A DNA stretch of 64,000 bases from Alteromonadales bacterium alter-6D02 (GTDB lineage: Bacteria > Pseudomonadota > Gammaproteobacteria > Enterobacterales > Psychrobiaceae). Below, in pieces: positions 18,535 through 47,527 of this stretch. The stretch covers positions 124,001 to 188,000 of the forward strand of contig PIZK01000014.1 in NCBI GenBank assembly GCA_002835545.1, given 5' to 3'. The notes under the pieces are model-generated. The model did no database searches and was not told the origin of the DNA. It worked only from the letters and a program-made list of their open reading frames with translations. How positions within the stretch are numbered: position 1 is the stretch's first letter; each line of letters begins with the position of its first letter. The translations under genes were made by a program, and so were the position numbers.

Positions 18535-19668
18535 TTACGCCATTGCCTTTTGGACTAAAAGCATATCAGATTTTTTATAAGCGACTCGATTTCTACCATT
18601 ATTTTTAGCAATATAAAGCTGCTGATCAGCATGCTGATATAAACTTTCAATTGATGCGTGCTTTTGGCATAGCTCAGAGATACCAATGCTGATGGTAATA
18701 TCCATTGAAAGCCCATCTTTAATAAAGCTCTTAGTCTCAATAGCATTACGAATATTTTCTGCAATATTAGCAGCTTCATCCAATGAGGTGCGATTGAGTA
18801 AAATAGTAAACTCCTCTCCACCAATTCGAGCAAACACATCACTTTCACGTAAGGTTTTACCGATACTGTTCGCTAATTCTTTTAAGATAAAGTCCCCTGC
18901 CTGATGCCCATAGTTATCGTTAATGCTTTTGAAAAAATCGATATCAAGCATTAAAAGCGAGACGCTCGTTTTCTCTCTGGTGGCCAGAGCAATTAACTTT
19001 TGAGATACTTCAAAAAAATAACGCCGATTGTGTACATTGGTTAGGTTATCAATCGTCGATAAGTGATGTAACTCCTCAACACTTCTTTTTAACTCATCAT
19101 GTGCTTGAATACTCGACAAGCGGCTATCATGTATCGCTTTAGACAATAAAATCGTCGCTGGGATGTAAATAATAGCTAAAACCACTAAGCCAGTATGTTG
19201 ATGCTGACCGTAATAAATCATAATGACAATTTGCGGTATGATCATGCAAAAGAAAAAGGTCAAATAAGCCCTATACAGCGATGACATCGATAAAGCTGCT
19301 GCTGTGATAATCCCTATGCTCATCACAAAACTGACTAATTCAAAAGGCTGTGGGGCATATATAATGGATAGTACTGATGATGCATTCCACATGAACGCTT
19401 GAAATACATTAGAAGCAATAAAATACTTCTCATTCCGTGTGAGATTATTTTGATCTTGTTGCGCTAAATAATAGGTAAACGATTTTGCATTATGTAAACG
19501 ATACGCCGCTAACAGCACCTGAAAAGCCAACCAAATAGTTAAGTATGCCAATGGTACGAATGGCATGAATATCCAAAAATAGGCACATGACACGATCAGC
19601 ATTGCCACCATCGCTCTGGGGGTTTGGTTAACTAAGCTTTCTATAAGTTTAGGATGAACAGATGACAT
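18535..19668 (-). CDS. Membrane diguanylate cyclase (GGDEF) with inhibitory site
   Basis: A 377-residue enzyme that makes cyclic di-GMP from GTP. The first half (residues about 15-190) has roughly six hydrophobic segments in close pairs, forming an integral sensor with no periplasmic domain. A short coiled linker leads to a GGDEF domain with the LTNVHNRRYF start, a metal site LMLDIDFFKSIND and the active loop ARIGGEEF. The sequence RESD lies exactly five residues before GGEEF, which is the canonical product-inhibition I-site (RxxD). The enzyme should therefore be active and feedback-limited. It stands alone, convergent with the gene to its left. The signal sensed is unknown. Confidence 0.92.
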   Translation of the reverse strand: MSSVHPKLIESLVNQTPRAMVAMLIVSCAYFWIFMPFVPLAYLTIWLAFQVLLAAYRLHNAKSFTYYLAQQDQNNLTRNEKYFIASNVFQAFMWNASSVLSIIYAPQPFELVSFVMSIGIITAAALSMSSLYRAYLTFFFCMIIPQIVIMIYYGQHQHTGLVVLAIIYIPATILLSKAIHDSRLSSIQAHDELKRSVEELHHLSTIDNLTNVHNRRYFFEVSQKLIALATREKTSVSLLMLDIDFFKSINDNYGHQAGDFILKELANSIGKTLRESDVFARIGGEEFTILLNRTSLDEAANIAENIRNAIETKSFIKDGLSMDITISIGISELCQKHASIESLYQHADQQLYIAKNNGRNRVAYKKSDMLLVQKAMA

Positions 19669-20114
19669 AATACTTCTTAGCGTTCTTTATTTTTTAAATA
19701 CTTCATTAAACTTTCAACTAAACCATTAAGGCAACGAAAGATTAATATTCAAATAACGGGCAACTTGGAATGAGTCAATGAAGTTGCTCTAGGTTATATA
19801 AGGTTTAAATACGTTGCTCTCCCATAAAAGAGCGATGGCTAAACTTACTGACTATTTTGAACGATCAAAGGGCATTTTTCTATGCGACTTCAGTGTCGAT
19901 TTGGGCCCGATTTAAAACACAGGTTCAGCTGAACCCTGACAATAAAAACAAAATCCGAGTGGCATGAAGCACTCATCTGTATGATTACGATATACCTATA
20001 CAATTAAATCAAAAAAATCACTTTATCAATCAAAAGAATAATTAAATATTCAGCTAAGTCTGCAATCTTTTTATAAGCTTAATATAAGTAATAATCTAAT
20101 TAGTGAGTGATTTA
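19669..20114. other. Divergent promoter region between two GGDEF genes
   Basis: 446 bases without an ORF. It contains a perfect 14-bp palindrome, GGTTCAGCTGAACC, at 19922-19935, and a hairpin, GCAACTT/AAGTTGC, with a 14-base loop at about 19761-19788. I looked for a GEMM cyclic-di-GMP riboswitch, which would make sense here, and did not find its conserved core. The palindrome is a plausible operator for one or both flanking cyclases. Confidence 0.45.
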
Positions 20115-21017
20115 ATGACAATAAAAATGAGGCCAGTGAGACTAAAGACCCTAATCATTAGCTATTCCATAGTTTTATTAGCATATGAAGCTTCTGTTGG
20201 AGCGATTACTCCGCCAAAAGAAATTATTGAAGTATTAACAGAATTCACAATGCTCATTGCTAGCCTAGTGATTATGTTTTATATCGATCGGTTAAAAGAA
20301 TCACGCAGTGTCTTTTGGATTATGAATATTGGTGCCTCGCTGCTTTACCTCGGCCTTTTTTTTGATTTTTTTGAGGAGTTTTTTATTCAGCCAAATATCT
20401 TAGATAATTCTTATGAAGATATTATTCAAACAGCTGGTTTTTTGATTATTTGTCTTGGAATACAGCGCTGGATTAGCTTACATTGCAATTTAGTCGCGCA
20501 ATTACATAAAACAGCTTCAACAGACCATATGACAGGACTGCTAAACCGGCGGGCATTTTATCAGCACGTTGAAAGCGACTCACCATTAACACCTATTCAT
20601 AGTTCTTTTCTTCTGATTGACATTGACCACTTTAAATCTATTAATGATCAATATGGACATGCTTTTGGCGATATTGTTATCAGCAAGGTCGCCACCATTA
20701 TTCGTTCTAATATCGGTGATAATCAACTAGCAGTTCGATGGGGTGGTGAAGAGTTTTTAATCTATTTCAAGCAATGCGACGGCTCACAAGCGAGCATTAT
20801 TGCAGAATCACTTCGAAGCACTATTGAGAAAGCAACCTTTACAGATCATACCAATAGTGTGAGCTGTACTGTTAGCATTGGCTTGTACACCACTCAAGAG
20901 CAAGTCAGCTACGATCACGGTATCGATCGAGCAGATATAGCACTATATCAAGCAAAGCATAATGGACGTAACAATGTCACTGTTTTTAAGACGGACGAAG
21001 TGCTAGATCCTCATTAA
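20115..21017 (+). CDS. Membrane diguanylate cyclase (GGDEF) without inhibitory site
   Basis: A 300-residue diguanylate cyclase. Four or so hydrophobic segments fill residues 8-125, with hardly any extracytosolic loops. The GGDEF domain begins at STDHMTGLLNRRAFYQH and contains LLIDIDHFKSINDQYGH and the active loop RWGGEEF. At the I-site position the sequence is GDNQ, so RxxD is absent and product inhibition is not expected, unlike the neighbour at 18535. A GTG at 20103 would add four residues; the ATG at 20115 is preferred, although its ribosome site is weak. The stop codon shares the palindrome TTAA with the stop of the convergent atpC-like gene, a 4-base overlap. Confidence 0.9.
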   Translation: MTIKMRPVRLKTLIISYSIVLLAYEASVGAITPPKEIIEVLTEFTMLIASLVIMFYIDRLKESRSVFWIMNIGASLLYLGLFFDFFEEFFIQPNILDNSYEDIIQTAGFLIICLGIQRWISLHCNLVAQLHKTASTDHMTGLLNRRAFYQHVESDSPLTPIHSSFLLIDIDHFKSINDQYGHAFGDIVISKVATIIRSNIGDNQLAVRWGGEEFLIYFKQCDGSQASIIAESLRSTIEKATFTDHTNSVSCTVSIGLYTTQEQVSYDHGIDRADIALYQAKHNGRNNVTVFKTDEVLDPH

Positions 21018-21954: not shown

Positions 21955-23157
21955 ATGATAAAAATATTATCCTGCTCATTAATTTGTTGCTTTATTCTAT
22001 TCTTTAACCAGCAAGCTTTCGGTGAAACTAAACTAGTTAAAGCAGAACCAAAGCAATTTCATGTGATGATATTTTCCCCTTCAACGCAAGATAATAAATT
22101 TTGGCGTAACGTTATTTCTTTCGCGCAAGCAGCCGCTGATGACTTGCATATTCAACTTAGTATTAATTACAGCGATATTATTAACCGCAAGCTATACCTA
22201 CAGCGAGTTGAACAAGCACTGGCCGTTCCAGAAGAGCAGCGCCCTGACGCAATCATTGCTGTCTCTTATCGCAAAGTCACCAAGAAAATTTTGTCGTTAT
22301 CTCATTATTACAACGTGCCAGTGATTATGGTCAACAACTCACTTCCCGAAGAGGATAGCTCTTTTATAGGACCTCCTCGCAGCCGCTATAAGACTTACTT
22401 GGGGCATATTACTCCTAACGAACAAAACTCGGGCTATTTATTAGCTAACTACTTAATCAAGCAGGCTTCACTGTCCTCACCAGAGCAACGGGTCACAGTC
22501 GCTGGGATCGGTGGCTCAAGAGAAGCTCCTGAGTCGCTAAGCCGCTATAATGGTTTAATGATGGCAGTTAGCGAAAACAATTCGAGCCTGACTCAAATGG
22601 TGTTTTCTAACTGGGAAGGAGATATTGCTTATAAACAAGCCTCTTCTTTACTCAGACGTTATGACCCCCTCCATATCATATGGTGTGCCAGTGATTTGCT
22701 GGCTATTAACACCCAAAAAGCAATTAATGAGCATAGCCGTACCGTTATCACAGGGGGGATCGATTGGACAAAAGCAGGCGTACAAGCTGTTTTAGATGGT
22801 GAGCTATCCGCCAGTGTCGGAGGGCATTTCGCTAATACAGGGTTCGCAGTTATCTTATTGCACGATTATTTACACGGTAAAGATTTTGCTGATGTTATGC
22901 CATTAATGCTAATTACAGAAAGTAAGCTATTGACTCAAGACAATGCAAAGCAATATGCGAAGCATTTGCTAGCACAAGACTGGTCATCGATTGATTTTAA
23001 GTCGTACTCTAGGGTTTATAAGCCAGAAAATACCAGCTATGACTTTTCAATAAACTATCTATTTTCGTTATTAGAAAAAGAACAAAAGTTACCTCACAAC
23101 AAAAAGAAACAGAGCCATTATACTTATACTCACCTCTCAAAAACCACTCAACATTAA
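21955..23157 (+). CDS. Periplasmic substrate-binding protein (ribose/LuxP-like), probable sensory partner
   Basis: A 400-residue exported protein of the type I periplasmic binding superfamily (sugar/LuxP branch). The signal peptide runs to FNQQAFG near residue 23. Two-lobe fold motifs: MIFSPSTQDNKFWRNV at the start of the mature protein, PDAIIAVSYRKVTKKIL, PVIMVNNSLP, and HIIWCASDLLAI with GGIDWTKAGVQAVLDG in the second lobe. No permease or ATPase of an ABC importer is nearby. Instead a chemoreceptor follows 213 bases downstream, which suggests ligand presentation rather than transport. It is clearly paralogous to the protein at 43428 (shared YLGH, KDF and YSRVY..P patterns). The ligand is unknown. 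The long basic C-terminal tail is unusual. Confidence 0.83.
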   Translation: MIKILSCSLICCFILFFNQQAFGETKLVKAEPKQFHVMIFSPSTQDNKFWRNVISFAQAAADDLHIQLSINYSDIINRKLYLQRVEQALAVPEEQRPDAIIAVSYRKVTKKILSLSHYYNVPVIMVNNSLPEEDSSFIGPPRSRYKTYLGHITPNEQNSGYLLANYLIKQASLSSPEQRVTVAGIGGSREAPESLSRYNGLMMAVSENNSSLTQMVFSNWEGDIAYKQASSLLRRYDPLHIIWCASDLLAINTQKAINEHSRTVITGGIDWTKAGVQAVLDGELSASVGGHFANTGFAVILLHDYLHGKDFADVMPLMLITESKLLTQDNAKQYAKHLLAQDWSSIDFKSYSRVYKPENTSYDFSINYLFSLLEKEQKLPHNKKKQSHYTYTHLSKTTQH

Positions 23158-23370: not shown

Positions 23371-25323
23371 ATGCTCAATAATCTCAGGTTAAGAACAAAA
23401 ATAGCACTCTCATTTGCGTTGGTTATGTTAATTTTAACCTGCGCTTCAGTTGCAGGTTTTATCGGGCTAAAAAACTCTGAGCAAGGGTTTATAGACTATC
23501 GAGGGTTAGCACGGGATAGTAATCTGGCCAGTGAGCTTCAAGCCAATATCTCAACGTTAAGAGTTGGCAATAAAGAATATATTGTCTCTTCAAACCCAAG
23601 CTGGATAAACCAGTTTGAGCGTCATACTCAACAAACTAATCAATTGCTCGAGAAAGCCAAGGTTGAAATACAGAAACCACAGCGCGCGCAATTAGTTTTA
23701 ACCATTTCAGCACACCTTGATGAATATAAAACAACGTTTAGCAATGTCGCTCTCCTAAGTAAACAAAGAGAACAGGTAAGGGTCGAGCAGCTCGACCCCA
23801 ATGGACGCAGTATGCGTAAAGCAATGACCGAAGTTATTGCATCAGCCTTCAGTGACAAAGATACAACCGCATCCTATTACGCCGCCCAAGTGCAAGAAAG
23901 CTTATTATTGGGCCGTCTTTATGTGAGTAAGTACCTCAACAGTGGATTAATCAGCGACTATGAGTTTGCCTTGTCTCAACTACATGAGCTCAAAGATACT
24001 CACTTTAATAAACTACAGCAAAACATTGAAAACCCGACTCGAATTGAGTTACTAGCAAGCTTTGAGCAAAGCCGTATCGCGTATATGCAAGCATTAAAGT
24101 CAGTGTTCGAATTGACTCAGCAACGCCATCAATATGTTGAAGAGCACTTAAATCGAATTGGTGGTTTATTGACTCAAGAAATTGAACACCTTAAGCAGTC
24201 AATCATTGCAGATCAGGATACATTAGGCCCAGAATTACAAAGAAGTAATGACATGAGTGTGACTTGGGTTGCGCTATTTACTATTGGTGCAGTTACTTTA
24301 GGCGCGTTAATCGCCTACACAATAGGCCGTACAATTACCAAACCCATCCTTCAAGCAGTTTCAGCAGCGCAGCAATTGGCAAAAGGCGATTTAATGAGTG
24401 ATATTCCTCGCGCTGGGCGTAATGAAGCAGGACAACTACTGGATGCTCAGCGCAATACTGCCGCGAGCCTCAAAGTGATTATCGGTGAAATTACCGATGT
24501 AAGTAATGAAATGAATGACTCAGCTAACCGCCTATCAGTGGTGAGTGAACAAGCCAGCCAAGGCGCCGCACAGCAACAATCAGAAACAGATCAAGTGGCG
24601 ACAGCAATGACAGAGATGGTGGCCTCAGTACAGGAAGTATCAAGCAATGCCATGATGGCCTCTGATATTTCTAGTAAAGCAGATCAAGACGTTACCAAGG
24701 GCTATCAATTAGTTGTTGAAACACAAGACAGCATTAGCATGCTTGCTTCAAACATCCAAGATACGTCACTGAAATTAAATCTTGTCGAACGTGAAAGTAA
24801 GAATATTGGTCATATTATGGATGTGATAAAAAACATTGCAGAACAGACCAATTTATTAGCCCTTAATGCGGCGATCGAAGCTGCGCGAGCGGGCGAACAC
24901 GGACGAGGCTTTGCTGTAGTAGCAGATGAAGTACGTACACTCGCACAAAAAACACAAAACTCAATTCAAGAGATCCAAACACTTATTGAGCGTCTACAAA
25001 CGGGGACTAATGAGGCCGTATCAGCGATGGCTAAAGGAATTGAAGACACTGAAGAGAGTGTTGGAAAAATAAATTTAACCGGGCAGGTGCTTGATGATAT
25101 TCGTAAGGCAGTCACTGCAATCAATGATATGAACATGCAAATAGCAACTGCCGTTGAAGAGCAAAGCACCGTTGCAGAAAGTATTAACGAAAATATTTTA
25201 AATGTCAGAACGGTCTGTGATGAAAGCACACAAACAACAGGTGAAACCGCCGATTCAAGTGCTCAACTGCTCGTTATCTCTGACAAGCTACAAACCATGG
25301 TGACTCAGTTTAAAATTGCATAA
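23371..25323 (+). CDS. Methyl-accepting chemotaxis protein with helical periplasmic sensor
   Basis: A 650-residue chemoreceptor. Transmembrane segments are at about 12-32 and 289-310. The roughly 255-residue region between them is all helical, like the HBM type of ligand-binding domain. HAMP (about 312-365) follows, starting [16 protein letters not shown]. The signalling tip holds [18 protein letters not shown] and [13 protein letters not shown], which contact CheA/CheW. No CheR-tethering pentapeptide is present at the C-terminus. It is the next gene after a periplasmic binding protein, so a working model is indirect ligand sensing through that protein, as for ribose or galactose with Trg. 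The binding partner is inferred. A long hairpin follows the stop. Confidence 0.95.
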
Positions 25324-27402: not shown

Positions 27403-29130
27403 CTATGGCAAGATTGTAAGTGGCCATTCACTCTTATCTGCGGTAACTTTACCTTGCTTATTATGATACATTCGTTCATCAGCAAGAGTTAAACAAGCGG
27501 AAGTGCTGTCTGTCTCTATGCTGTCAGCAATACCATAGCTCACTCCTGCAAATGGCCATGTTTGTTGAAGCTCTCCTTCACATTGCTCAACCCATAGTTT
27601 TGTTTGACAAATTAAACGACGCAAGTCCTTTTTTGTCACCGTATTAAATAACCAAACAAACTCATCTCCACCCGTTCTAAAAACCTGACCGTATTCAGCG
27701 ACTCGTTGTGACATGACTTGGGATGTTTTTATTAAGAAAGCATCGCCTTGCGCATGGCCTAATTGATCATTAATTTGCTTCATGCCATCTAAATCAATAA
27801 ACACAATAGCATAATAGCGACTGAGCTTAGCCAGACTCTCATTGAGCGCATAACGGTTAGCGATTTGAGTCAACGAGTCTATTCGCGCAATAGAAAATTG
27901 GTGTTTGTAATCTAACTGTTGCAATCGGAGCCACTCAGATAACGACAGTAAAATACAAATACAATCAATCGCTAACGCAACCATAACGATCAGCTCTGGA
28001 TGGGTTAACCCTTCAATCAGGTTAGTATGGGATAACACATAATAGAGGAGTGATACGCAATAAAGGCTATTGCCGAATAAGAAATACTTTGCCCGAAAGT
28101 CACTCACATACAACATTTTAAAACCAATAAATATCGCCAGTGGAATCCAAAACATGGCAATGAGGTGCGATATAAGAAATACGCTCGAGAAGTCAAGCCA
28201 CAACATAATAAAGGCCAATATGCAGCACAATACTGCGAAGCTATCAAGCACTTGAGTCAATGTTTTGTGTAGACGTATAGGCCCATGACTAGACAATACC
28301 GTTGCCGTATCAGCGATAAATAACAACTTAGTAAACTGACATGCGCATGCAATCGCGACTGGGAACAGGTAAATTCCTAAATATGAAAAATTAAATGAAC
28401 TGGTTAATAGGATATCATCGATGAGACCTGACGCAGCAGCCCAACCTAAGCCGTGAAGCCCAATATAACCTGCACACGCTATAGTCACCGCTAAGCGAGT
28501 TCGAATAAACACTAATAATGCTATCAACGCTAAAGTTAGCATGACCGTAATGGCAGCTATCGTGACCGTATTTTCAACGAGCTGTAAACGATAGAAAGCA
28601 GGCTGATTATAAATAGTCAGGTGTAATGGGGTCGCGTAGTGCTTTGCATTAACATACAGCCAAAGCTCACCTGTTTCATAGGGCTCAATCGTAAAACCGA
28701 CGGCTTGATTGTGCATTAATACGGGAGTATTAATATCCTGAGTTTGAGAGAATCCATTTAACTTAATTAATGTATCATCATGTCTTTTCCAATAGGCTAC
28801 GCCAGCATCAATGAAGTTCGCACTAGGTGACGCGTACCAGCTGCGCGCTTGAGCATGACTGTTTTCAAGGGGTACACGAGCAATATAGGCACCTGACGAG
28901 CCAATGGTTAACTCGTTAAGAGGTTTTGATTGATAATAGGCTTGCTGGATTTGTTTAAACCCTGCTGGTTCAAGTAAGTTAACCGCTCGCCACACTTTGA
29001 AATCTGGAAGTTTAACCGTTGATTCTTGCGAGAAAGAGACCTGTGATTCTGCTCTCAACGGGATAACGATAGTGATAAAAAAGCCAATAGAAAATAAAAA
29101 CAACTTAACCAGTTGAGTATTTAACATCAT
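27403..29130 (-). CDS. Diguanylate cyclase with 7TM-DISM sensor
   Basis: A 575-residue cyclase. A signal peptide (cut near AES, residue 28) precedes an extracellular beta-rich domain of about 150 residues of the DISMED2 type, then seven hydrophobic helices (about 185-400) of the 7TMR-DISM type, a short linker and the GGDEF domain (start SLTQIANRYALN, metal site FIDLDGMKQIND, active loop RTGGDEF). The family's extracellular part is thought to bind carbohydrates. No RxxD is present five residues before GGDEF, so no I-site. It converges on ogt with 33 bases between stops. An AGAGG ribosome site precedes the two start ATGs. The signal is unknown; the activity is likely. Confidence 0.92.
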   Translation of the reverse strand: MMLNTQLVKLFLFSIGFFITIVIPLRAESQVSFSQESTVKLPDFKVWRAVNLLEPAGFKQIQQAYYQSKPLNELTIGSSGAYIARVPLENSHAQARSWYASPSANFIDAGVAYWKRHDDTLIKLNGFSQTQDINTPVLMHNQAVGFTIEPYETGELWLYVNAKHYATPLHLTIYNQPAFYRLQLVENTVTIAAITVMLTLALIALLVFIRTRLAVTIACAGYIGLHGLGWAAASGLIDDILLTSSFNFSYLGIYLFPVAIACACQFTKLLFIADTATVLSSHGPIRLHKTLTQVLDSFAVLCCILAFIMLWLDFSSVFLISHLIAMFWIPLAIFIGFKMLYVSDFRAKYFLFGNSLYCVSLLYYVLSHTNLIEGLTHPELIVMVALAIDCICILLSLSEWLRLQQLDYKHQFSIARIDSLTQIANRYALNESLAKLSRYYAIVFIDLDGMKQINDQLGHAQGDAFLIKTSQVMSQRVAEYGQVFRTGGDEFVWLFNTVTKKDLRRLICQTKLWVEQCEGELQQTWPFAGVSYGIADSIETDSTSACLTLADERMYHNKQGKVTADKSEWPLTILP

Positions 29131-36716: not shown

Positions 36717-38642
36717 TTAACTTGCTGTTCTCTTATTGTGGTACATATCTTCATCAGACTTCCTAATCAACTCCTCTATCGTCGAGCCATCGTAAGGGTA
36801 TGTCGCTATACCGATACTAACCCCAATTTCTAGCGCTTGAAAGTCAATGACCATCGGTTTAGCTACATTCGCTTTAATTTTATTGACCAAACTTAATGTA
36901 TCGAACCTCGTATCGATATCTTCAGCTAATACAATAAACTCATCTCCCCCAAAACGTGTAACGGTATCAACGTCACGGACGGTATTTTTCAGTCGCTCAG
37001 CCACAGTAATTAACACCGTATCACCAATAGAATGCCCGTGATCATCATTAATTCTTTTAAAGTTATCTAAATCTAAGAACAAAATAACAAATGAAGTCTC
37101 TTTCCTATTAGCCCGGCTTATCGCCACTTCCATCCTTTCATGGAGTAAGCGGCGTGTCGGCAAACTAGTTAACGCGTCGTGTAATGCTAAACGCTTAAGT
37201 TCTTTTTCTCGCTTGAATGTTTCAGTGACATCCTTGATGACAGCAACACATTGAATGCTTTGTTCAAGCGTTATTGAAGTCACCGTTATATTGGCTAAAA
37301 ATAAACTGCCGTCTTTGCGTTTCACTTCCACTTCACGTCCCAATAAATCTTGCCATTGCAAAGCTTCATTATCGGGTAAAGCCTTAGACTGCGCTGATAG
37401 TAAAAAGCTGTTCAGTCTCTGACCTAATAAACCAAACTCATCATCACCAAACATGGCTGCGGCGGCTTTATTAGCAAAAATAATAACGCCTTCAGGGTTT
37501 GTAATTACTACAGCTTCAGTTAAATAATTCAAGATATCTTGCTGCTTTAACTGCTCAAGAGTCATTAATGCACTCAATTTATTGCCAATTTGGTTTAAGG
37601 AAGTCGCTAGTATTTTAAATTCATCATTACTATCGACTTCAGCTTTCACGTTAACATTGCCAAGCGACAGTGCCTCACTAGAATGAACGAGTGTCGTCAC
37701 GGGCTGCATCATCTTTTCAATGAAGTGATGAAAGACCGTACTGACAATGATAAATAGGATAAGAGCCGTCACTATCAGCACCAATGAATAGCTGTAGATT
37801 AAACCAAATACTTGTTCCTGAAGTAGAGTCACAACCACTGTGATATCAAATGGTTTAAGCAGTTTAGCTTTGGCATATAACACATTGTTGTTTTGATCTT
37901 GAGTCGTTATTAATTTTGCAGATGAGTTCACTATTAATTGATAAGGTGACAGAGCCAGTGCTTTGATCTGCTGTTGCTCAGAGGAAACCGCAATCGGAAC
38001 GAATGTATCCACATGAGCAAAATACACATCGATAGGAAAGTAGCTGTGATCCACGACTTTTTCAGCAACCATCTCATTCAAAGAGGCCAAAGGTCGAAGA
38101 AAAGTAACGACACCAAGCTCGTTATTCGCAAAGGTAATAGCATGAATGAAATGAATAAGGTAAGCATCATCACTTTCTGAATAAAGCAGTTCAATGTGAG
38201 GTTTATTAATGGCTGCCTGAGCCATCATCTGTTGTTGGTTTATAAAATTGACGGGATAGTTCTGTTGAGAAATAGCGACACCGCTATGGTCAAAAATAGC
38301 AACTGATGGCGTGTATTTAGATTGAATGTCGGTCTTATTAACTGATTGTTGTGCAAGCCAGGTTTTAAACACATGAGGAGTGTAGCGAGGCTCAGCAGCA
38401 GAGACTGCATTGACGAATTGTTTTTGGGACATTAACTGGCGACTCAGAAAATGATTAATCGTCCATTGACTATCATGAACTAAATTATTTAAATGATTAT
38501 TGATTAACTGTTCAGTCGCGCGATTGACTTGCCACAGGCTTAAACTACAGATAATAAGCCCAAAGCAAACCACTGCAGTGATCAATGTCACCATTAATTT
38601 ACTTTTGATGCTGAGGTTTGTTCTTATATTTATTAATGGCAC
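36717..38642 (-). CDS. Membrane HAMP-PAS-GGDEF diguanylate cyclase
   Basis: A 641-residue cyclase. It has a transmembrane helix at about 15-37, a periplasmic sensor of about 240 residues (Cache-like), a second helix at about 278-302, HAMP (about 305-355), PAS (about 365-480) and a GGDEF domain: start DALTSLPTRRLLHE, metal site FLDLDNFKRIND, active loop RFGGDEF. RDVD lies five residues before GGDEF, a proper I-site. No EAL follows. The start is a GTG without a clear ribosome site, so the true start could be a few codons inside (next ATG, residue 17). It is the last gene of the minus-strand signalling block. Confidence 0.9.
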   Translation of the reverse strand: MPLINIRTNLSIKSKLMVTLITAVVCFGLIICSLSLWQVNRATEQLINNHLNNLVHDSQWTINHFLSRQLMSQKQFVNAVSAAEPRYTPHVFKTWLAQQSVNKTDIQSKYTPSVAIFDHSGVAISQQNYPVNFINQQQMMAQAAINKPHIELLYSESDDAYLIHFIHAITFANNELGVVTFLRPLASLNEMVAEKVVDHSYFPIDVYFAHVDTFVPIAVSSEQQQIKALALSPYQLIVNSSAKLITTQDQNNNVLYAKAKLLKPFDITVVVTLLQEQVFGLIYSYSLVLIVTALILFIIVSTVFHHFIEKMMQPVTTLVHSSEALSLGNVNVKAEVDSNDEFKILATSLNQIGNKLSALMTLEQLKQQDILNYLTEAVVITNPEGVIIFANKAAAAMFGDDEFGLLGQRLNSFLLSAQSKALPDNEALQWQDLLGREVEVKRKDGSLFLANITVTSITLEQSIQCVAVIKDVTETFKREKELKRLALHDALTSLPTRRLLHERMEVAISRANRKETSFVILFLDLDNFKRINDDHGHSIGDTVLITVAERLKNTVRDVDTVTRFGGDEFIVLAEDIDTRFDTLSLVNKIKANVAKPMVIDFQALEIGVSIGIATYPYDGSTIEELIRKSDEDMYHNKRTAS

Positions 38643-38727: not shown

Positions 38728-38753
38728 AAAGGCGTAACCTAAGTTACGCCTTT
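38728..38753. terminator. Hairpin between cyclase gene and small ORF
   Basis: A perfect 11-bp stem, AAAGGCGTAAC/GTTACGCCTTT, with loop CTAA. On the minus strand it is followed by TGTTGTTT, a modest T-tract, so it could end leftward transcripts from the upstream signalling operon before the GGDEF gene starts at 38642. Confidence 0.65.
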
Positions 38754-39166: not shown

Positions 39167-41380
39167 TTAACAAGCATTAACTAATATTTCATCAATCGAC
39201 ATCGGTTTAAAATAATAAAAGCCTTGCGCAATATCGACTCCTTGTTGAGTGAGTAAATCGACTTGCTCTAATGTCTCCACCCCCTCAACCACCACCGTTT
39301 TATTCAAATCGTAACAAATTTGTAGCATCCCCTTTAAAACAAACATTGCATTTGAATCATCAGAAATATAGTTAACAAATGAGCGGTCTATTTTTATCAC
39401 ATCCAGTGGCAATTTTAATAAATAAGACAATGATGAATAACCTGCACCAAAATCATCTAAACACAATACAAAGCCAAGTGCTTTAAGTTCATTTAAGTGT
39501 TGAATTGCCATATCACTTCGTACCAAAGCATTTTCAGTGATTTCTAATTCAATTTTATTAATATCAAAGGGGTGAGTGTTCATTACTGCCTTTAACTCTT
39601 CAATAAACTCACTGTGATGTAATGAGTTAGCCGAGATGTTTACAGAAATAGGTTTGGTGATATTAGGATGTTTCTCTAAAATTTCTAATGACTTTCTAAA
39701 GACATACATATCGATATCAAAGTACATTCCTGACTGCTCGGCAACTGGAATAAAAGCATTGGGTGGAATAATACCCTTTTGTGGATGTTCCCAGCGTACT
39801 AACGCTTCATAGCCCACCACTTCACCAGTCCCCATCGACACCTTAGGTTGAAGAACTAAAAAAAGTTCTTCTTGATCAAGGCCGTTACGCAGGTCAGCTA
39901 AAATACCTAATCGACTTCTTGCTTCATCTTCAAAATGAGGCTCAAACTCTTGTCCAGCTCCGCGCTTACTCTCTTTAGCCACACGAAGAGCTATCTTGGC
40001 GTGACGTAAAACCGTTTCTACATTAAAATTAGCCTCAGCTGATTCATGATGAGCTTCTCCAATTGACACTCCTAAACGAATAGAGCTTCCTTCGACGATA
40101 AAGGGTTTAGAACATTCTTTAACAACGTCTTTAACCGTCATATCAGTATCAGCTAGTAGTACAGCAAATACATCAGAGTGAAGACGTGAAATTACACTAT
40201 GCGCGGAAAAGGTTCGTTTTAAGTTTGACGTCATCGCCTTCAATACTTTATTGCCAAACTCAAAACCTAAACTCTCAACAATGTCATGAAAGTAATCGAT
40301 ATCAATGACAAAAAGCGTCACCCTTTCATTCGCTTGTTGAATCACTTTTTTTGCACTTTCGATAAACCCTGTATTATTGAAAAGAGATGTCACTCCATCA
40401 TAATAAGCAGCCTTATTTAATCGAGTAAAAAATTTAGCATTTTCGAGCCCTAGTGCTACATTTAAGCAAAAAACTTGCAAGAGCTCTTCATCAATTCGAG
40501 ATAAACTAACCTGCCCTTCAAGCACCACAACCCCTGTCCAGTCTGAAGGCGTTGATAAAAAGAGCGCTGTCATCGACTCATTAAACACGTGTTTTTTGGT
40601 TGATAATGCTAGCTGTGCAATTTCTCTTGCTTCTAGTTGACTAATCTCATCAATTTTTACACCATAAATCTCACTAAACTTCTTTGATGTTGCCACAACA
40701 AGGTAAGACTCTTTGACCAAGTGGCCGTTATTATCAGCCTCCAGCAGCGGCCTTTGAGAAACACAGAAAATTCCTGGAGTTGAAATTTTTAATAAGGCGT
40801 TGATTTGCTGTAGCACACCCGATGCAAAGTCATGGACTGAATGCTCTTTCATTAAATTGGCAGACGCATCTATCACATTACGTAGACCTTTCTTGCTTTC
40901 TGAAATTGCGCTTAAGTGGCCAAACGATCGAATCGCAGTAGCTAATGCCGTATAGAGTTTATTTCTGGTTAGTTCATTTTTAGTCTTATAATCATTAATT
41001 TCATAGCGCTTGATAATATCCTCTTCAGGTGCGTAGCCCGGTTGACCAGTCCTGAGGATAATCTGCACCATTTCCATGTGCAATTCATGCCTAATTCGCT
41101 CGGCTAATTCAAGTCCGGCTTCAGAGCTTTCCATCACCACATCGAGTAAAATAACAGCACAGTCCCGATGCTGCCCCAACAAATCAAAGCCCTCTTTAGC
41201 CGAGTACGCGCTATAAAACTCCAAGCGTTTATCTTGAATAACAATGTCGCTTAATGCGAGTTTTGTTACATCATGTACGGACTGCTCATCATCAATAATA
41301 ACGACTTTCCATGAATCAAGTGGTAACTTCGGTTGCTCACAATCATTATCTTCAATTATCACCAAAGGAATATCAGACAT
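39167..41380 (-). CDS. Response regulator with degenerate GGDEF and EAL phosphodiesterase domains
   Basis: A 737-residue output protein. REC domain (about 24-145) with VVIIDDE and phospho-acceptor Asp80 (VILLDVVME); a GAF-like DUF3369 region (about 170-330); a GGDEF-like domain whose active loop reads RLHSDVFAV instead of GGDEF, so it should not make cyclic di-GMP; and an intact EAL domain with YEALVRWEHP, EITENALV, DDFGAGYSSL and VEGVET. It is therefore predicted to degrade cyclic di-GMP when phosphorylated. The ATG at 41380 has AAGGAGG six bases upstream and overlaps the kinase gene by 8 bases, so the two are translationally coupled. An upstream frame extension to 41410 is rejected. Confidence 0.93.
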   Translation of the reverse strand: MSDIPLVIIEDNDCEQPKLPLDSWKVVIIDDEQSVHDVTKLALSDIVIQDKRLEFYSAYSAKEGFDLLGQHRDCAVILLDVVMESSEAGLELAERIRHELHMEMVQIILRTGQPGYAPEEDIIKRYEINDYKTKNELTRNKLYTALATAIRSFGHLSAISESKKGLRNVIDASANLMKEHSVHDFASGVLQQINALLKISTPGIFCVSQRPLLEADNNGHLVKESYLVVATSKKFSEIYGVKIDEISQLEAREIAQLALSTKKHVFNESMTALFLSTPSDWTGVVVLEGQVSLSRIDEELLQVFCLNVALGLENAKFFTRLNKAAYYDGVTSLFNNTGFIESAKKVIQQANERVTLFVIDIDYFHDIVESLGFEFGNKVLKAMTSNLKRTFSAHSVISRLHSDVFAVLLADTDMTVKDVVKECSKPFIVEGSSIRLGVSIGEAHHESAEANFNVETVLRHAKIALRVAKESKRGAGQEFEPHFEDEARSRLGILADLRNGLDQEELFLVLQPKVSMGTGEVVGYEALVRWEHPQKGIIPPNAFIPVAEQSGMYFDIDMYVFRKSLEILEKHPNITKPISVNISANSLHHSEFIEELKAVMNTHPFDINKIELEITENALVRSDMAIQHLNELKALGFVLCLDDFGAGYSSLSYLLKLPLDVIKIDRSFVNYISDDSNAMFVLKGMLQICYDLNKTVVVEGVETLEQVDLLTQQGVDIAQGFYYFKPMSIDEILVNAC

Positions 41381-43403
41381 TAGAAGCCTCCTTACTGCTC
41401 GGTGCAACAATAGGGATCATCATCTCAAATGTAGTCCCAACATGACTTTCAACATTAATACTGCCTCCCAAAACATGAGAAACAATATTATGAACGATAT
41501 TAAGACCTAGCCCTGAGCCCCCCTCACCAAGCTTAGTCGTATAAAAAGGATCAAAAATTTGATTTAAGTTGGACTCTGCTATGCCTAATCCATTGTCAGA
41601 GAATAAGAATCTGACCTTATCACCCACCAATGAAAATCTAATATTTATTTCCCCTTCTTCTCTACCGTCAAACGCATGTAGCATCGCATTGTTAAATAAA
41701 TTCGTAATCACCTGCCCTAATGGCCCTGGATAGCTATCCATGACAATATCATTATCACCTTCTGTCACAAAGTTAATATTTGTTCGAGTTATTTGGTGGT
41801 GTAACGTTGAAGTAATTTCATCAACTGTTTCTGCTAAATTAAAGCTCCGTCTTTTAGAGCTTGTTTGATCCACAGCGACTTGTTTAAAGTTATGAATTAA
41901 ATGAGAAGCTTGTTCTAGCGAACGATCAAGAATTGTTAACGCCTCTTGAGTCTTCACCTCAAAATTATCTAACGAAGAACGTTTAAGAGCCCCCGATTTA
42001 ACTTGCTCTAAAAAGCCTTTCATATTTTCTGCAATAGTCGTCGATACAGTTACGCTGACACCTAATGGCGTATTCACTTCATGAGCAACCCCAGCCACTA
42101 GGTTACCCAAAGATGCCATCTTTTCATTTGAGACTAACTTCTCTTGGGTATTCTTTAACTGCGACAGAGCCGTTGTTGCTGTATCTCGCTCTTTCATTAA
42201 GTCTTTCTGCATTCGCTCTTTCCGTTCGCGCAAGTCATCCAATTCACACAACTCTAATTTAAGTTGTTGTAAGCTCACTAAAACGTCACTGAGTTCATCA
42301 TTGCGATCTGCCACCTCTAATTCAAAATCTCGCTCGCCTACCCTTAATTTATCAATAGATTTGGTAATGGTTTTCAGTGGGATAAAAACCATTTTTCTTG
42401 TATAAATTGTCATGGCGAAAGTCAATGTAACAATCAATACGGTAGCACTGACTAAAACAATCACAAGATGGTTAGCAACATTGCCCAGCCCAACCATCGA
42501 GCGATTAACATTTTCACGAGCTTCAGAAGATAGAGCATCTAATAACTTCTCTGCCTCAGTGAAGCTTTGATGCTCTAAATCATCTATGGCTTGCATTGCA
42601 TTCTTTTTAGTTTGCGTTGAGTAGCTAACGAACACCTTTTCCCCACCCGATTTTAATTCATTAAATAAACGTTCAATTTCATTAATTCTAATAATCTCTT
42701 GAGGCTTCAATTCTAGTGGTTTTAGCTGTTCTAAAAATGACGCAAACTGAAGTGCGTTAGCAAAGAACGATCCTCTAGCATCAAGGTTTCCCATAACAAA
42801 GCGATCCAAATCAGACAGCATATCCCCTGCTTCGTCAGTAAGTTCCAAGTAAAAGCGTACTCCAGGAAGATCATCATTAATCACATCATTGAGATCTTTG
42901 ACAGAACCAACATCGGCAATTTCTTCTTCTTTTAATTCATCAAGTAAACGCTCTAATGGCTCGCCAACATTAGTGATTAGATGCTGAATTTGCTCAGCGG
43001 CTAAGGCTTCACTGTAAGGGCTATAAACAGCAAAAACACGGCTTTGTGCTTGCTCTTTATGAGCATTAACAATTCGAGTTACCCGTTTAATATCATTATA
43101 TTGTGCGATTTCTGTAGGAATTAGCTCTTTGAATCGATTGAATTCGTCATAGTTCCCAAAGTACTCTTGTTTCTCTTCTGGCTCTCCTAAAACATATTCC
43201 AGTAAATTAGAATTCATATCGCCAAGTTCTTCTAACATAGCAAGGGTATTCAGCGCTGCAGGCATGTCATGGGTTGTCACTTCCTTTGTCGCGTTTTTGA
43301 TTTGATTGACCAGCACAATCACGGTTAAAGAAAAAATTAAAACCGACACAGAGATCAATACAAGTACAATATTTATCCGTGAAGAAATGGATTGGCGCTT
43401 CAT
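41373..43403 (-). CDS. Sensor histidine kinase paired with the EAL response regulator
   Basis: A 676-residue membrane kinase. Helices at about 12-34 and 313-335 enclose a roughly 275-residue periplasmic, helix-rich sensor. HAMP (about 337-390) leads into a coiled coil. The phospho-acceptor is His441 in GVAHEVNTPLG, a variant H-box seen in kinases of this group. The ATPase domain has LFNNAMLHA (N box), DNGLGI and GEGGSGLGLNIV. No receiver domain is attached; the partner is the next gene, overlapping by 8 bases. The gene upstream, 24 bases away, encodes a periplasmic binding protein. Start ATG 43403 has GGAGAG at good distance; a TTG at 43415 is rejected. Confidence 0.94.
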   Translation of the reverse strand: MKRQSISSRINIVLVLISVSVLIFSLTVIVLVNQIKNATKEVTTHDMPAALNTLAMLEELGDMNSNLLEYVLGEPEEKQEYFGNYDEFNRFKELIPTEIAQYNDIKRVTRIVNAHKEQAQSRVFAVYSPYSEALAAEQIQHLITNVGEPLERLLDELKEEEIADVGSVKDLNDVINDDLPGVRFYLELTDEAGDMLSDLDRFVMGNLDARGSFFANALQFASFLEQLKPLELKPQEIIRINEIERLFNELKSGGEKVFVSYSTQTKKNAMQAIDDLEHQSFTEAEKLLDALSSEARENVNRSMVGLGNVANHLVIVLVSATVLIVTLTFAMTIYTRKMVFIPLKTITKSIDKLRVGERDFELEVADRNDELSDVLVSLQQLKLELCELDDLRERKERMQKDLMKERDTATTALSQLKNTQEKLVSNEKMASLGNLVAGVAHEVNTPLGVSVTVSTTIAENMKGFLEQVKSGALKRSSLDNFEVKTQEALTILDRSLEQASHLIHNFKQVAVDQTSSKRRSFNLAETVDEITSTLHHQITRTNINFVTEGDNDIVMDSYPGPLGQVITNLFNNAMLHAFDGREEGEINIRFSLVGDKVRFLFSDNGLGIAESNLNQIFDPFYTTKLGEGGSGLGLNIVHNIVSHVLGGSINVESHVGTTFEMMIPIVAPSSKEASNV

Positions 43404-43427
43404 CGTTCTCTCCAAAAAGAATAGTAG

Positions 43428-44558
43428 CTAGTCATTTAATAAGCGTTCAATTGAAAAATCATAACTCGGCTGGGAAGGGTAATAGACTCGAGAGTATTTT
43501 TTAAAATCAATACCATCCCAATCTTTGTTAACTAACAGTTCATAATATTTATCAACGTTAGCACGGTGTATAACCCCACCGGAAGAAAAGCTGACTAATG
43601 GAAAAACTTCCGCAAAGTCTTTGCCATGAAAATAATCATGAAGTAGTACGACGGCAAAACCCGCATCGGTAAAATGACCACCCGCGGTAGCATCTAACTT
43701 GCCCTGTTTAATTGCTGCTATCGCCTCTTTAGTCCAATCAAAACCACCACTAACTACGTGTTTTTCGAGTGGTGAGTTCCATGCCTTAGCACTATGTAAA
43801 GCCATCAAATCACTCGCATACCAAGCAACATGAATATTCTTATAACGTTTAATTAAAGCAGTCGTTTTTCGTAACGCTTCCGCGCCTTGCCAATCGGCAT
43901 GAACCACCTGAAATAGTCGTGCCATCGGATCTTGTTCTATGACTCCTCTGAGCCCCATATTACGATTAAATGTCTCGGGGGCATCACGAGAGCCACTGAT
44001 GCCAACAACGTTCACAACTTGAGTTGGAAGATCCTTTTTTGCTTGTGCGACTAACACCTTGGTGAGTTGTTTACTTAAATCGTAATCGTTGGCACTCATA
44101 TGACCTAAATAAGTAGGGTAATTTACACGCGGTAAACCAATTGCCTCTCTTGATTCATGAGGCAAGCTATTATTAATTAAGAAGATAGGAATCTTATATT
44201 TAACGGATAAGGCAAGTATTTTTTTAGTTCTTCGACGATAGGATACCGCTAGGATAGCATCAGGGCGCTTAGGTGAACGTAATAGAGCTTCCATTATTTC
44301 AAGGTAAGTCAACCCATGGTGAGAGGCATTATAAACAACGCTAAAATCAACGTCTAAGTCATTGGCGCTCGCCCGAGCAAAGTTATGAACGTCTCCCCAA
44401 AAACCTTCATCATTACTGGTGGGAGAGACAAGCACAAAACTAAGTTTTTTTGCAGGCTTTTGTTTTACAGTGTTGGTTTCAAGTGTGCCAGTAGCCATTG
44501 CCACATGACTCGTCACTGTGAAAATTAATGAAACGACTATTCCAACCCAATACCTCAT
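43428..44558 (-). CDS. Periplasmic substrate-binding protein (LuxP/ribose-type) in a kinase operon
   Basis: A 376-residue exported protein. The signal peptide ends near VAMATG (residue 23). The type I binding-protein fold shows LVSPTSNDEGFWGDV, PDAILAVSYRRRTKKIL, PIFLINNSLPHE, VVGISGSRDAPE and GGFDWTKEAI. It is paralogous to the protein at 21955, sharing most of these blocks. No ABC transporter genes accompany it. It is followed after 24 bases by the histidine kinase, so it most likely reports ligand to that kinase, in the way LuxP serves LuxQ. The ligand is unknown; a small sugar or a signal such as AI-2 is possible. ATG 44558 (GGGG ribosome site) is preferred over GTG 44564. Confidence 0.87.
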   Translation of the reverse strand: MRYWVGIVVSLIFTVTSHVAMATGTLETNTVKQKPAKKLSFVLVSPTSNDEGFWGDVHNFARASANDLDVDFSVVYNASHHGLTYLEIMEALLRSPKRPDAILAVSYRRRTKKILALSVKYKIPIFLINNSLPHESREAIGLPRVNYPTYLGHMSANDYDLSKQLTKVLVAQAKKDLPTQVVNVVGISGSRDAPETFNRNMGLRGVIEQDPMARLFQVVHADWQGAEALRKTTALIKRYKNIHVAWYASDLMALHSAKAWNSPLEKHVVSGGFDWTKEAIAAIKQGKLDATAGGHFTDAGFAVVLLHDYFHGKDFAEVFPLVSFSSGGVIHRANVDKYYELLVNKDWDGIDFKKYSRVYYPSQPSYDFSIERLLND

Positions 44559-44674
44559 CAACACCCCAACAAATTGTTATTATGCTTCTAAAATATAATA
44601 CATCCTTCACGTATTAGCTCAATGTATTTGTCAACACACTTCATTCAAACTACCCGCTAAAATCGATCCACTCA

Positions 44675-47527
44675 TTAACGTTCGCTTGTCGAACCAGTCA
44701 TAGCAAGCTTTTGTAATTCAGCCAATAATTCTATCGTCAGCCCTTTGATACTTTGATACTGCTTGTCATTAATCTGCCTTTCAAGGTTAATCGCTAAACT
44801 CGCAATATCAGAAAAACCAAACATTAATGCCGCACCAGCTAAACGATGGGATATTACTGCCACTTTTCTGTAATCAAACTGCTTAAGCGCTAACGTCAAT
44901 TGTTGATGCTCCGTATCTAAACCAGCGATAAAACTACGGGTCAAATCTGAAGTATCAACCTCATCGACAGAGCTCAGATCGGAAGGCGCTATTACCTGAC
45001 CAAGATAAGTCCCCACTTTATTGATAAAAGAAAGCCTCGAAATTGGCTTGCTAATAAAGTCATCAAAGCCGACACTCAAATATTGTTCCACTTCATGCGA
45101 CATAGCATTAGCGGTTAAGGCAATCACAGGTTGTTTAACACCGCGTTGGCGTAGCTCTTTTAACGCATCGATGCCATCCATCTCAGGCATTTGAATATCA
45201 AGTAAATACAAATCAGGGTTATGTAATTCTGCTTGGGTCAGCACCTCTAGTCCATTCATAGCCTCAACAACCGTTAGTCCAACGGAGGACAATAGTCGGC
45301 TGACCAACCTCAAATTATCGGCATGGTCATCGGCCACCAGCACTGTTCCTGTTAATGCCGTTATTGGCTCTTGATGATCGGCTTGCATTAGCTGCTGTTT
45401 AGATGCTTCGTTGACAGAATCACAAATGATGTAAGGTATTTTTAACGAAAATAAGCTCCCCTTACCCTGTAAACTTTGTACGGCAATAACGCCTTGCATC
45501 ATTGTCGCCAGCTGTTGCGATAAACATAGCCCTAGCCCTGAACCACCAAAACGGCGACTGATCGAGCTATCTCCTTGGGTAAAATTTTGGAATAACAGAG
45601 GAATTTGCTCCGCAGCAAGGCCAATTCCTGTATCAATCACATTAAACGTTAAATCACTACCGTCAATAACCACAACCAGATCAACACGCCCTTTATGGGT
45701 AAACTTAATCGCATTAGAGCAAAGGTTGATTAGAATTTGTAATAACCTAATTCTATCCACTTCAATAAACATTGGTTGTGGGATATCTCGAACAATTTTA
45801 AAGTGAAGGCCTTTTTTAACCGCTTGTTCAGTAAACAAGTCCACCAACTCATCGAGCAAAGCGTGTAAGTCATGCGGCTTAATTTCCAGCTCAAGTTTAT
45901 CGGCCTCAATTCGACTAAGATCTAAAATATCATTAATCAAATTCAGTAAGTGGTTACTATTGTTAAAGATGATTTCAACTTCTTTATTAATGTATGCTTC
46001 ATCCACATCACCGCAGATAATTGCTTCAGCCTGACCGATAACGGCTGTTAATGGAGTTCGTATTTCGTGGCTCATATTGGCAAGAAATTTACTCTTAATC
46101 TCATTCGCCCGATGAAGGTCATCCATCAACAGTTCTAACTCTTGAGTTCGTTGTTTGACTTGCAACGAAAGCTGGCGCTTTAAATCACGCTCGATATTAC
46201 GGCGATAGATAAAGAAACCAATACATAGGATCAGAAACAACGCCAGTAAAATAAAGTAACGCTCTTGCTCTGCCTTATCGAGTTTTAATTGCTGTATTGC
46301 TCTTTTTTGTGTTAATTCAGAAACCTCTTTTTGCAGCTGCTCCGACTCAAGTAATGCCCTATATTGAGCAAGTTCTATCTCTAACCCTTTATTCGATTGC
46401 TCTTCTTGTTTGCCCTTAAATTGATAAAACCCTTTGACCGCCTCAGCTCGTTCATCAATTGACGATCTAAACAACGCAAGAACCATTTGGCTGGCATTAA
46501 CCTTTTGAATTTCATTGAGCTCTTTCGATTTAGCAATAGATAAATTAACATTTTTAATCGCATTCTCAGTATCACCAATAACGAACTGCGCAACAGCTAA
46601 ATTTGTTAGCCCAGCGGCATAAACCGTATAATGCTCCCACCGAAGTCCCAGAGTCACAGCTTGTTCTGCATGTTGCATGGCTTCAACATGGCGACCTTGC
46701 ATATTATAAAGCTCTGCGAAATTATTATGCTGTGAGCCCATAAAATATTTATTATCAGTTTTTTTGTAATAGTTAAATGACTTCTTTAAATAGTATTCTG
46801 ATTGTTCAAACTTTTTAGCGCTGCGGTAAGAGTTCCCGATGTCGCCGTAAGTTAATGCAAGTCCTTCTTCGTCGTTCAATTCGCGATAACCCGCAATCAC
46901 TTCGTTGTATATATCAATTGCAGTATCGTAACGAGAGGTGCGAAAAAATAACCCACCCACATTCATTTTTAGGTCGACTAAATCAACAGCACTGCCATGT
47001 ATTTTATAAAGGGATTCAGCTTGTTGATAGCTTAACAGTGCATCTTTCATTTCATACATAGCAGCCTGCACTAGACCTATATTGTTATACATATGAGCCA
47101 ATGCTAGAGGCTGTTCTGATGTTTGATAATATTCTTTTACTTTGTCATAAAAAATTAGCGCTTGTGGGTAGTTACTCTTGTAATAATAAACCACGCCAAT
47201 GGCTTTATTTATTTTAGACTCAATGTTATCTAAGCCCTGCCCATTAATTCGAAGGCTGGCCTCTTGCAACACCTTTAAAGCGACTGTTAACTCTTTGAGT
47301 TCAACATAAATTCGAGCTTGAGTGAGTGCTATTTCAGCACGTACACTTGGGGTAAGGCGGTGGGATTGTAATAACTGTTCTAAACTTAAAAGCGCTCGCT
47401 GTTTGTCTTCAAGAGCAACAATTTCGTTTAGCTTTTGTTGCAAGTTTTCTGATATTGCAGCAGGCGCAGAAATACTCCAGATGGTTAACCAGCTAAAAAT
47501 AATGATTAGCTTTACAAAATATCGCAC
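44675..47527 (-). CDS. Hybrid sensor kinase: TPR sensor, kinase, receiver, HPt
   Basis: A 950-residue multi-step phosphorelay protein. A signal peptide (to about residue 24) precedes some 350 residues of tetratricopeptide repeats in the periplasm, then a coiled coil, one transmembrane helix (424-441), a kinase core with His487 (NMSHEIRTPL) and ATP motifs NLCSNAIKF, DTGIGL and GGSGLGL. The receiver domain has phospho-Asp777 (LLDIQMPEMDG) and the C-terminal HPt domain has His894 (ISHRLAGAA). The start is GTG with GAGG six bases upstream. It lies 116 bases before the binding-protein gene, same strand, with no clear terminator between, so it may share a transcript. The output regulator is not evident and might be REC proteins elsewhere. 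Confidence 0.93.
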   Translation of the reverse strand: MRYFVKLIIIFSWLTIWSISAPAAISENLQQKLNEIVALEDKQRALLSLEQLLQSHRLTPSVRAEIALTQARIYVELKELTVALKVLQEASLRINGQGLDNIESKINKAIGVVYYYKSNYPQALIFYDKVKEYYQTSEQPLALAHMYNNIGLVQAAMYEMKDALLSYQQAESLYKIHGSAVDLVDLKMNVGGLFFRTSRYDTAIDIYNEVIAGYRELNDEEGLALTYGDIGNSYRSAKKFEQSEYYLKKSFNYYKKTDNKYFMGSQHNNFAELYNMQGRHVEAMQHAEQAVTLGLRWEHYTVYAAGLTNLAVAQFVIGDTENAIKNVNLSIAKSKELNEIQKVNASQMVLALFRSSIDERAEAVKGFYQFKGKQEEQSNKGLEIELAQYRALLESEQLQKEVSELTQKRAIQQLKLDKAEQERYFILLALFLILCIGFFIYRRNIERDLKRQLSLQVKQRTQELELLMDDLHRANEIKSKFLANMSHEIRTPLTAVIGQAEAIICGDVDEAYINKEVEIIFNNSNHLLNLINDILDLSRIEADKLELEIKPHDLHALLDELVDLFTEQAVKKGLHFKIVRDIPQPMFIEVDRIRLLQILINLCSNAIKFTHKGRVDLVVVIDGSDLTFNVIDTGIGLAAEQIPLLFQNFTQGDSSISRRFGGSGLGLCLSQQLATMMQGVIAVQSLQGKGSLFSLKIPYIICDSVNEASKQQLMQADHQEPITALTGTVLVADDHADNLRLVSRLLSSVGLTVVEAMNGLEVLTQAELHNPDLYLLDIQMPEMDGIDALKELRQRGVKQPVIALTANAMSHEVEQYLSVGFDDFISKPISRLSFINKVGTYLGQVIAPSDLSSVDEVDTSDLTRSFIAGLDTEHQQLTLALKQFDYRKVAVISHRLAGAALMFGFSDIASLAINLERQINDKQYQSIKGLTIELLAELQKLAMTGSTSER

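Follow-up and report, generated by a model that had tools for sequence, protein, structure and literature searches.

The stretch analysed here, hereafter the window, comprises 64,000 nucleotides of contig PIZK01000014.1 (positions 124,001 to 188,000) of Alteromonadales bacterium alter-6D02. Its minus strand carries three tightly spaced genes encoding, in order, a periplasmic binding protein, a transmembrane histidine kinase and a response regulator predicted to break down cyclic-di-GMP (c-di-GMP) (Table 1). The binding protein gene opens with an ATG at 44558 and stops at 43428; 24 bases separate it from the kinase ATG at 43403, and the 3' end of the kinase gene overlaps the start of the regulator gene (41380) by 8 bases, ATGTCTGA. 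Gene order, coordinates, gap and overlap all agree with the initial annotation, whose range of 41373-44558 covers the binding protein and the kinase but leaves out the regulator, which ends at 39167. The statement that no ABC permease or ATPase is present was also confirmed, as pieces of Escherichia coli RbsA and RbsC, used as phmmer queries, matched none of the 45 open reading frames (ORFs) of the window. A weak promoter-like site precedes the binding protein gene, in a stretch where the number of such sites is not above chance.

Table 1. Features of the binding protein-kinase-regulator locus and of its neighbourhood in the window.
Feature	Position	Strand	Description
Binding protein	43428..44558	-	Peripla_BP_4, relative of PDB 3h75; putative co-receptor
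Transmembrane histidine kinase	41373..43403	-	HATPase_c above cut-off; HisKA and HAMP below; HEVNTP box present
Kinase sensor repeat 1	42900..43286	-	Residues 40-168; sequence repeat test and AlphaFold2 model
Kinase sensor repeat 2	42495..42890	-	Residues 172-303; sequence repeat test and AlphaFold2 model
Response regulator	39167..41380	-	REC-DUF3369-degenerate GGDEF-EAL; predicted c-di-GMP phosphodiesterase
Weak promoter-like site	44595..44622	-	TTGAGC-16-TATTAT, before binding protein
Terminator-like hairpin	38728..38753	-	3' of regulator
TPR hybrid kinase	44675..47527	-	TPR-transmembrane (TM, by eye)-HisKA-HATPase-REC-Hpt; neighbour, membership not supported
Binding protein paralogue	21955..23157	+	42-45% identical; chosen start, listed ORF from 21853
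Methyl-accepting chemotaxis protein	23371..25323	+	Sensor weakly matching HBM and 4HB models, below cut-off

The kinase and the regulator form a conserved unit. The kinase is simple, not hybrid, with neither a REC nor an Hpt domain found in it. The regulator begins with a REC domain (29.2 bits, just below the Pfam cut-off of 30.2), followed by DUF3369, GGDEF and EAL domains. It had been described as a REC-degenerate GGDEF-EAL protein, and degeneracy indeed holds for its GGDEF motif (LHSDVF), but not for the receiver or the EAL motifs. The receiver Asp and Lys and the EAL motif residues, which have recognised functional roles, are kept in 12/12 aligned orthologues, window included, and the GGDEF motif is degenerate in the same 12. 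Window-like kinase-regulator pairs recur in 11 aligned loci, and in one more, L130, the kinase frame is broken. A different binding protein upstream of the orthologous kinases was considered and rejected where tested, the upstream genes being unrelated: the pair is preceded by an RluA-type synthase gene in L109 and by genes for AAA-T2SSB proteins in L129 and L135. A gene also precedes the orthologous pair in L123-L126, four genomes of another family; Pfam identified an AhpC/TSA-like thiol protein in L123, L124 and L126.

The binding protein matches Peripla_BP_4 over residues 43-305 (1.8e-17), and its N-terminus is, by eye, signal-peptide-like without a lipobox. Among solved structures it is closest to 3h75, described as a "periplasmic sugar-binding domain protein" (1.1e-34; 1.7e-97 with the family profile). 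Used as sole query in the first scan of genome contigs, it found no relative. The order-wide search of 394 genomes gave relatives at 1e-30 in 28 genomes (40 places, the two of its own genome included), and the class-wide profile search of 369 genomes gave relatives at 1e-40 in 7 genomes, its own included. Pooling both yielded a family sample of 46 places in 34 genomes. Within the genus, 2/9 genomes have such a binding protein at 1e-20. Homologues lying mostly beside ABC permease genes, the pattern that the initial annotation held to speak against a sensory role, were not what we found: no CUT2 permease gene comes closer than 8 kb to any family place (0/46; nearest 8,033 bases; a few places are near contig ends), permease types other than CUT2 being checked by phmmer with the RbsC piece only.

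The family is enriched at signalling genes. Eight of the 46 were fused to, or on the same strand at most 250 bases upstream of, a signalling gene, versus 15/699 other ORFs of the same loci (Fisher 2.8e-5, a value that is only indicative since the loci are related); without the window members, the count is 6/44. Cyclase genes follow a family member with an overlap or a 4-base gap in L052, L053, L062 and L217, and with no gap in a Salinivibrio plasmid record (L072). Beside the family member in L047, Pfam identified a CHASE5 protein; L051 and L054 share this arrangement, and of these three loci Pfam was run on L047. In L031, of the same genus, Pfam found a DesK-type kinase and a LuxR-type regulator beside the family member. 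Kinases also adjoin plasmid-borne members in Azoarcus and Cupriavidus records, and the Azoarcus set, analogous to that of the window, includes a REC-GGDEF-EAL protein; the kinase of this set, a hybrid whose sensor is weakly CHASE5-like, is not orthologous to the window kinase. Two single-chain fusions were observed: Peripla_BP_4-SBP_bac_3-GGDEF, a diguanylate cyclase (L058, 9529-11994), and Peripla_BP_4-SBP_bac_3 x2-PAS-histidine kinase-REC x2-Hpt, a hybrid kinase (L219, 4040-9379).

In a maximum-likelihood tree of 51 rows, with partner labels assigned by hand and weak deepest splits, the 15 partner-labelled rows all belonged to a single set of 31 rows (support 92/81), of which the window protein is a member, and none of the remaining 20 rows carried a label. 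The window protein, its paralogue and a same-genus relative formed one clade (100/100), and each precedes a different gene, respectively the window kinase, a chemoreceptor and a DesK-type kinase. Taken together, these observations support a family that does not lie beside CUT2 permeases here and that is enriched beside, and sometimes fused to, signalling proteins. The proposal that the binding protein acts as a sensor is in line with this family context, but not with the lack of a conserved three-gene adjacency (see below). Our literature search found no paper joining CHASE5 to periplasmic binding proteins, and none under a five-term combination that included TorT, EAL and c-di-GMP, the exact triad itself not having been searched by name; in the accessible part of the literature found for Peripla_BP_4 with GGDEF, the subject is autoinducer-2 (AI-2).

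The kinase sensor is all-helical in its AlphaFold2 model (mean predicted local distance difference test score 90.9, 45-row alignment). Its two halves (42495-43286, minus strand) are a tandem repeat of a helical unit of about 130 residues (hhalign 99.8%), with a repeat score 18 standard deviations above 200 shuffles in the window protein, a margin that spans 5 to 22 across the 12 rows tested. Pfam has no model that covers this unit above cut-off. Foldseek ranked two structures of PilJ first among the PDB matches of the model (1.7e-5 and 3.6e-5; no other match fell below E 0.001), followed by the TorS-TorT complexes 3o1h/i/j (E about 2e-3, probability 1.00). The model thus supports a PilJ/TorS-like helical fold class, which includes TorS, the partner of TorT. 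A sequence link between this sensor and TorS, suggested by an NCBIfam TorS model scoring far under its cut-off, was rejected, profile comparison not bearing it out; most of that score was probably contributed by the kinase part.

At 1e-6, the sensor was matched in 32/394 genomes of the order, and in 1/9 genomes of the genus, that of the window itself. A scan of named genomes, from which the best 80 of 98 matches were kept, gave 77 loci in Colwellia, Motilimonas, Psychromonas, Pseudoalteromonas, Vibrio, Shewanella, Okeania and other genera; their 81 sensor ORFs comprise 58 chemoreceptors, 15 hybrid kinases, 7 kinases and 1 other. In Vibrio and Pseudoalteromonas, this sensor type sits in chemoreceptors. 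In L142 (4736-9511), the tested neighbours encode CheA- and CheW-like proteins, and many of L146-L171 have similarly sized genes at the same places, as judged from sizes only. Order-wide, matches spanning only about half of the sensor occur in ORFs of about 540 residues.

Because the kinase sensor is all-helical in its model, TorT-TorS is a better model for the locus than LuxP-LuxQ, with which it was initially compared. LuxP-LuxQ, which responds to AI-2, comprises a binding protein and a kinase with no transporter, and LuxQ is a hybrid kinase with a PAS-like sensor. The comparison stands as regards a binding protein and a kinase without a transporter, but fails as regards a sensor modelled as all-helical, not PAS-like, and a kinase that is simple. 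LuxP was absent among the matches listed, which are 60 of the 119 that the family profile has in the PDB. TorT-TorS and the locus are alike in that their binding proteins share a superfamily, their kinase sensors have similar helical folds and the two genes are neighbours, for TorT and TorS in E. coli K-12; the binding protein indeed aligns with TorT (hhalign 97.3%, E 2.4e-11), in a pairwise comparison that any superfamily member might pass. By contrast with TorS, the window kinase is simple, not hybrid, its output is a predicted phosphodiesterase regulator, the sensors share no sequence similarity, and the adjacency seen in the window is not conserved.

In NspS-MbaA, which responds to polyamines, the receptor is one membrane GGDEF-EAL protein, and in ScrB-ScrC a periplasmic binding protein likewise controls c-di-GMP turnover via a membrane GGDEF-EAL protein. 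The locus resembles NspS-MbaA, as outlined in the available text on that system, in that a periplasmic binding protein would control c-di-GMP turnover, and differs from both systems in that a kinase and a REC-type EAL regulator stand between. More generally, many kinases activated by binding proteins are encoded next to the genes of those proteins, according to PMC11113362, and PMC9602780 describes binding proteins as widespread activators of kinases, chemoreceptors and cyclases; this mode of activation is regarded as general. The locus shares with such receptors a binding protein gene beside a kinase gene, and differs by the c-di-GMP phosphodiesterase regulator predicted as output and by the duplicated helical sensor.

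The reading that we favour, to which we give an even chance, is that the binding protein is a co-receptor added, in the manner of TorT with TorS, to a kinase-phosphodiesterase switch that is complete in itself. The kinase would sense via its duplicated helical periplasmic domain and phosphorylate the receiver of the regulator, changing its EAL activity; the EAL domain of the phosphorylated regulator, if we infer the direction of the effect correctly, would break down c-di-GMP. In this genome, a transporter-less binding protein would have been recruited directly upstream of the pair, on the same transcript. Loaded with its ligand, it would dock on that sensor in the way that TorT docks on TorS, and would then tune kinase activity and hence c-di-GMP breakdown. 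Of this scheme, the order of the genes, their domains and motifs, the conservation of the pair, the distance of the family from CUT2 permeases and, as a model, the fold class of the sensor are shown; docking, phosphotransfer, co-transcription, the phosphodiesterase activity and the direction of the effect are inferred. The link from ligand to kinase to c-di-GMP put forward in the initial annotation is plausible and partly supported. Control of the kinase by the binding protein is in line with the tight spacing of the three genes, the family context, the TorS-class sensor fold and the conserved pair, but not with the distribution of the triad.

Several observations indeed weigh against a co-receptor role. 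Conserved adjacency of the three families was not found: a family binding protein (hidden Markov model, 1e-5) occurs in the flanks of none of 97 kinase-sensor loci (0/77 and 0/20, partly the same places), as far as these flanks were read and including those of 11/11 aligned orthologous kinase-regulator pairs, and in 6/8 genomes with the pair the order-wide searches found no family member at 1e-30. In the family sample, 38/46 members are neither fused to a signalling gene nor followed directly by one, on the count given above, and, judged by eye, 0/59 other places matching the sensor of the chemoreceptor beside the paralogue share a contig with a family member. The DesK-type kinase of L031 seems, by eye, to have no large periplasmic domain, so that adjacency need not mean docking. 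As for the sensor, its fold likeness to TorS is moderate (template-modelling score 0.43-0.45 by query, 0.50-0.53 by target), and its profile shows no sequence similarity to the TorS sensor (hhalign 0.5%). Since orthologous pairs occur without a binding protein in their flanks, the kinase works without one elsewhere. Because, in addition, the upstream genes are unrelated where tested, the pair looks like an ancestral unit, and the binding protein like an addition seen in the sample only at this locus.

The same facts give its strength to the closest alternative, which we rate as somewhat less probable: the kinase would sense alone via its duplicated helical domain, and the binding protein, merely co-transcribed, would serve another receptor (e.g., the chemoreceptor some 20 kb away) or work alone. 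The orthologous pairs without a binding protein and the many family members without an adjacent signalling gene are in line with it, as is the direct binding of small ligands by PilJ- and HBM-type sensors, reported in the accessible part of PMC6381276. It is at odds, however, with the 24-base spacing, with the enrichment of the family at signalling genes and its two fusions, and with the position of 3/3 family members of the genus before a chemoreceptor or kinase gene.

That the protein is an ordinary solute-binding protein, supplying an ABC transporter whose genes lie outside the window, is improbable. PMC9602780 links Peripla_BP_4 to binders of xylose, rhamnose and ribose, and the genome does match the CUT2 permease model four times, on contigs C16 and C41, neither of them the window contig. 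However, no family place is within 8 kb of such a permease, 10/34 family-bearing genomes have none at 1e-10 (PF02653; the other 24/34 do), and two members are fused to signalling outputs. As for the ligand, the family profile was aligned to the ribose-binding-type structure 2ioy. Most of the positions that we take to be ribose contacts are replaced there, an Asp and stacking aromatics remaining, and because of this a ribose-like ligand is not supported by the alignment.

The TPR hybrid kinase annotated just upstream, at 44675, is real, as shown by its domain matches. A binding protein reporting to it is nevertheless the least probable of these alternatives: it is adjacent on the same strand and its TPR part, between a signal-like N-terminus and a TM helix (by eye), may be periplasmic, but 116 bases with the promoter-like site separate the two genes, homologues of this kinase occur at 1e-100 in 8/9 genomes of the genus, its own included, and the binding protein is in none of the six same-genus neighbourhoods read, one of which ends at the kinase. 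The suggestion that it belongs to the same pathway was thus not supported. Elsewhere in the window, signalling-domain queries match 8/45 ORFs, and four more GGDEF genes lie at 18535-19668, 20103-21017, 27403-29130 and 36717-38642.

The paralogue of the binding protein, some 20 kb away, is followed after 213 bases by the chemoreceptor gene, downstream on the plus strand; no sequence similarity was found between the sensors of the kinase and of this chemoreceptor. A broader and more tentative view, which we hold to be rather unlikely, is that the transporter-less clade provides an exchangeable periplasmic co-receptor for kinases, chemoreceptors, diguanylate cyclases and fusions, represented here by two copies on two helical-sensor receptors.

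Of the 27 Pfam families in the binding protein clan, only SBP_bac_3 has been studied in c-di-GMP networks, according to the accessible part of a review (PMC8846402). A Peripla_BP_4 clade beside, or fused to, cyclases, kinases and a chemoreceptor offers a tractable route to an external c-di-GMP signal. The duplicated helical sensor, with no Pfam model above cut-off, is itself spread over kinases, hybrid kinases and chemoreceptors. If the view of an exchangeable co-receptor is true, the same ligand class could set both surface attachment, through c-di-GMP breakdown, and swimming, through chemotaxis.

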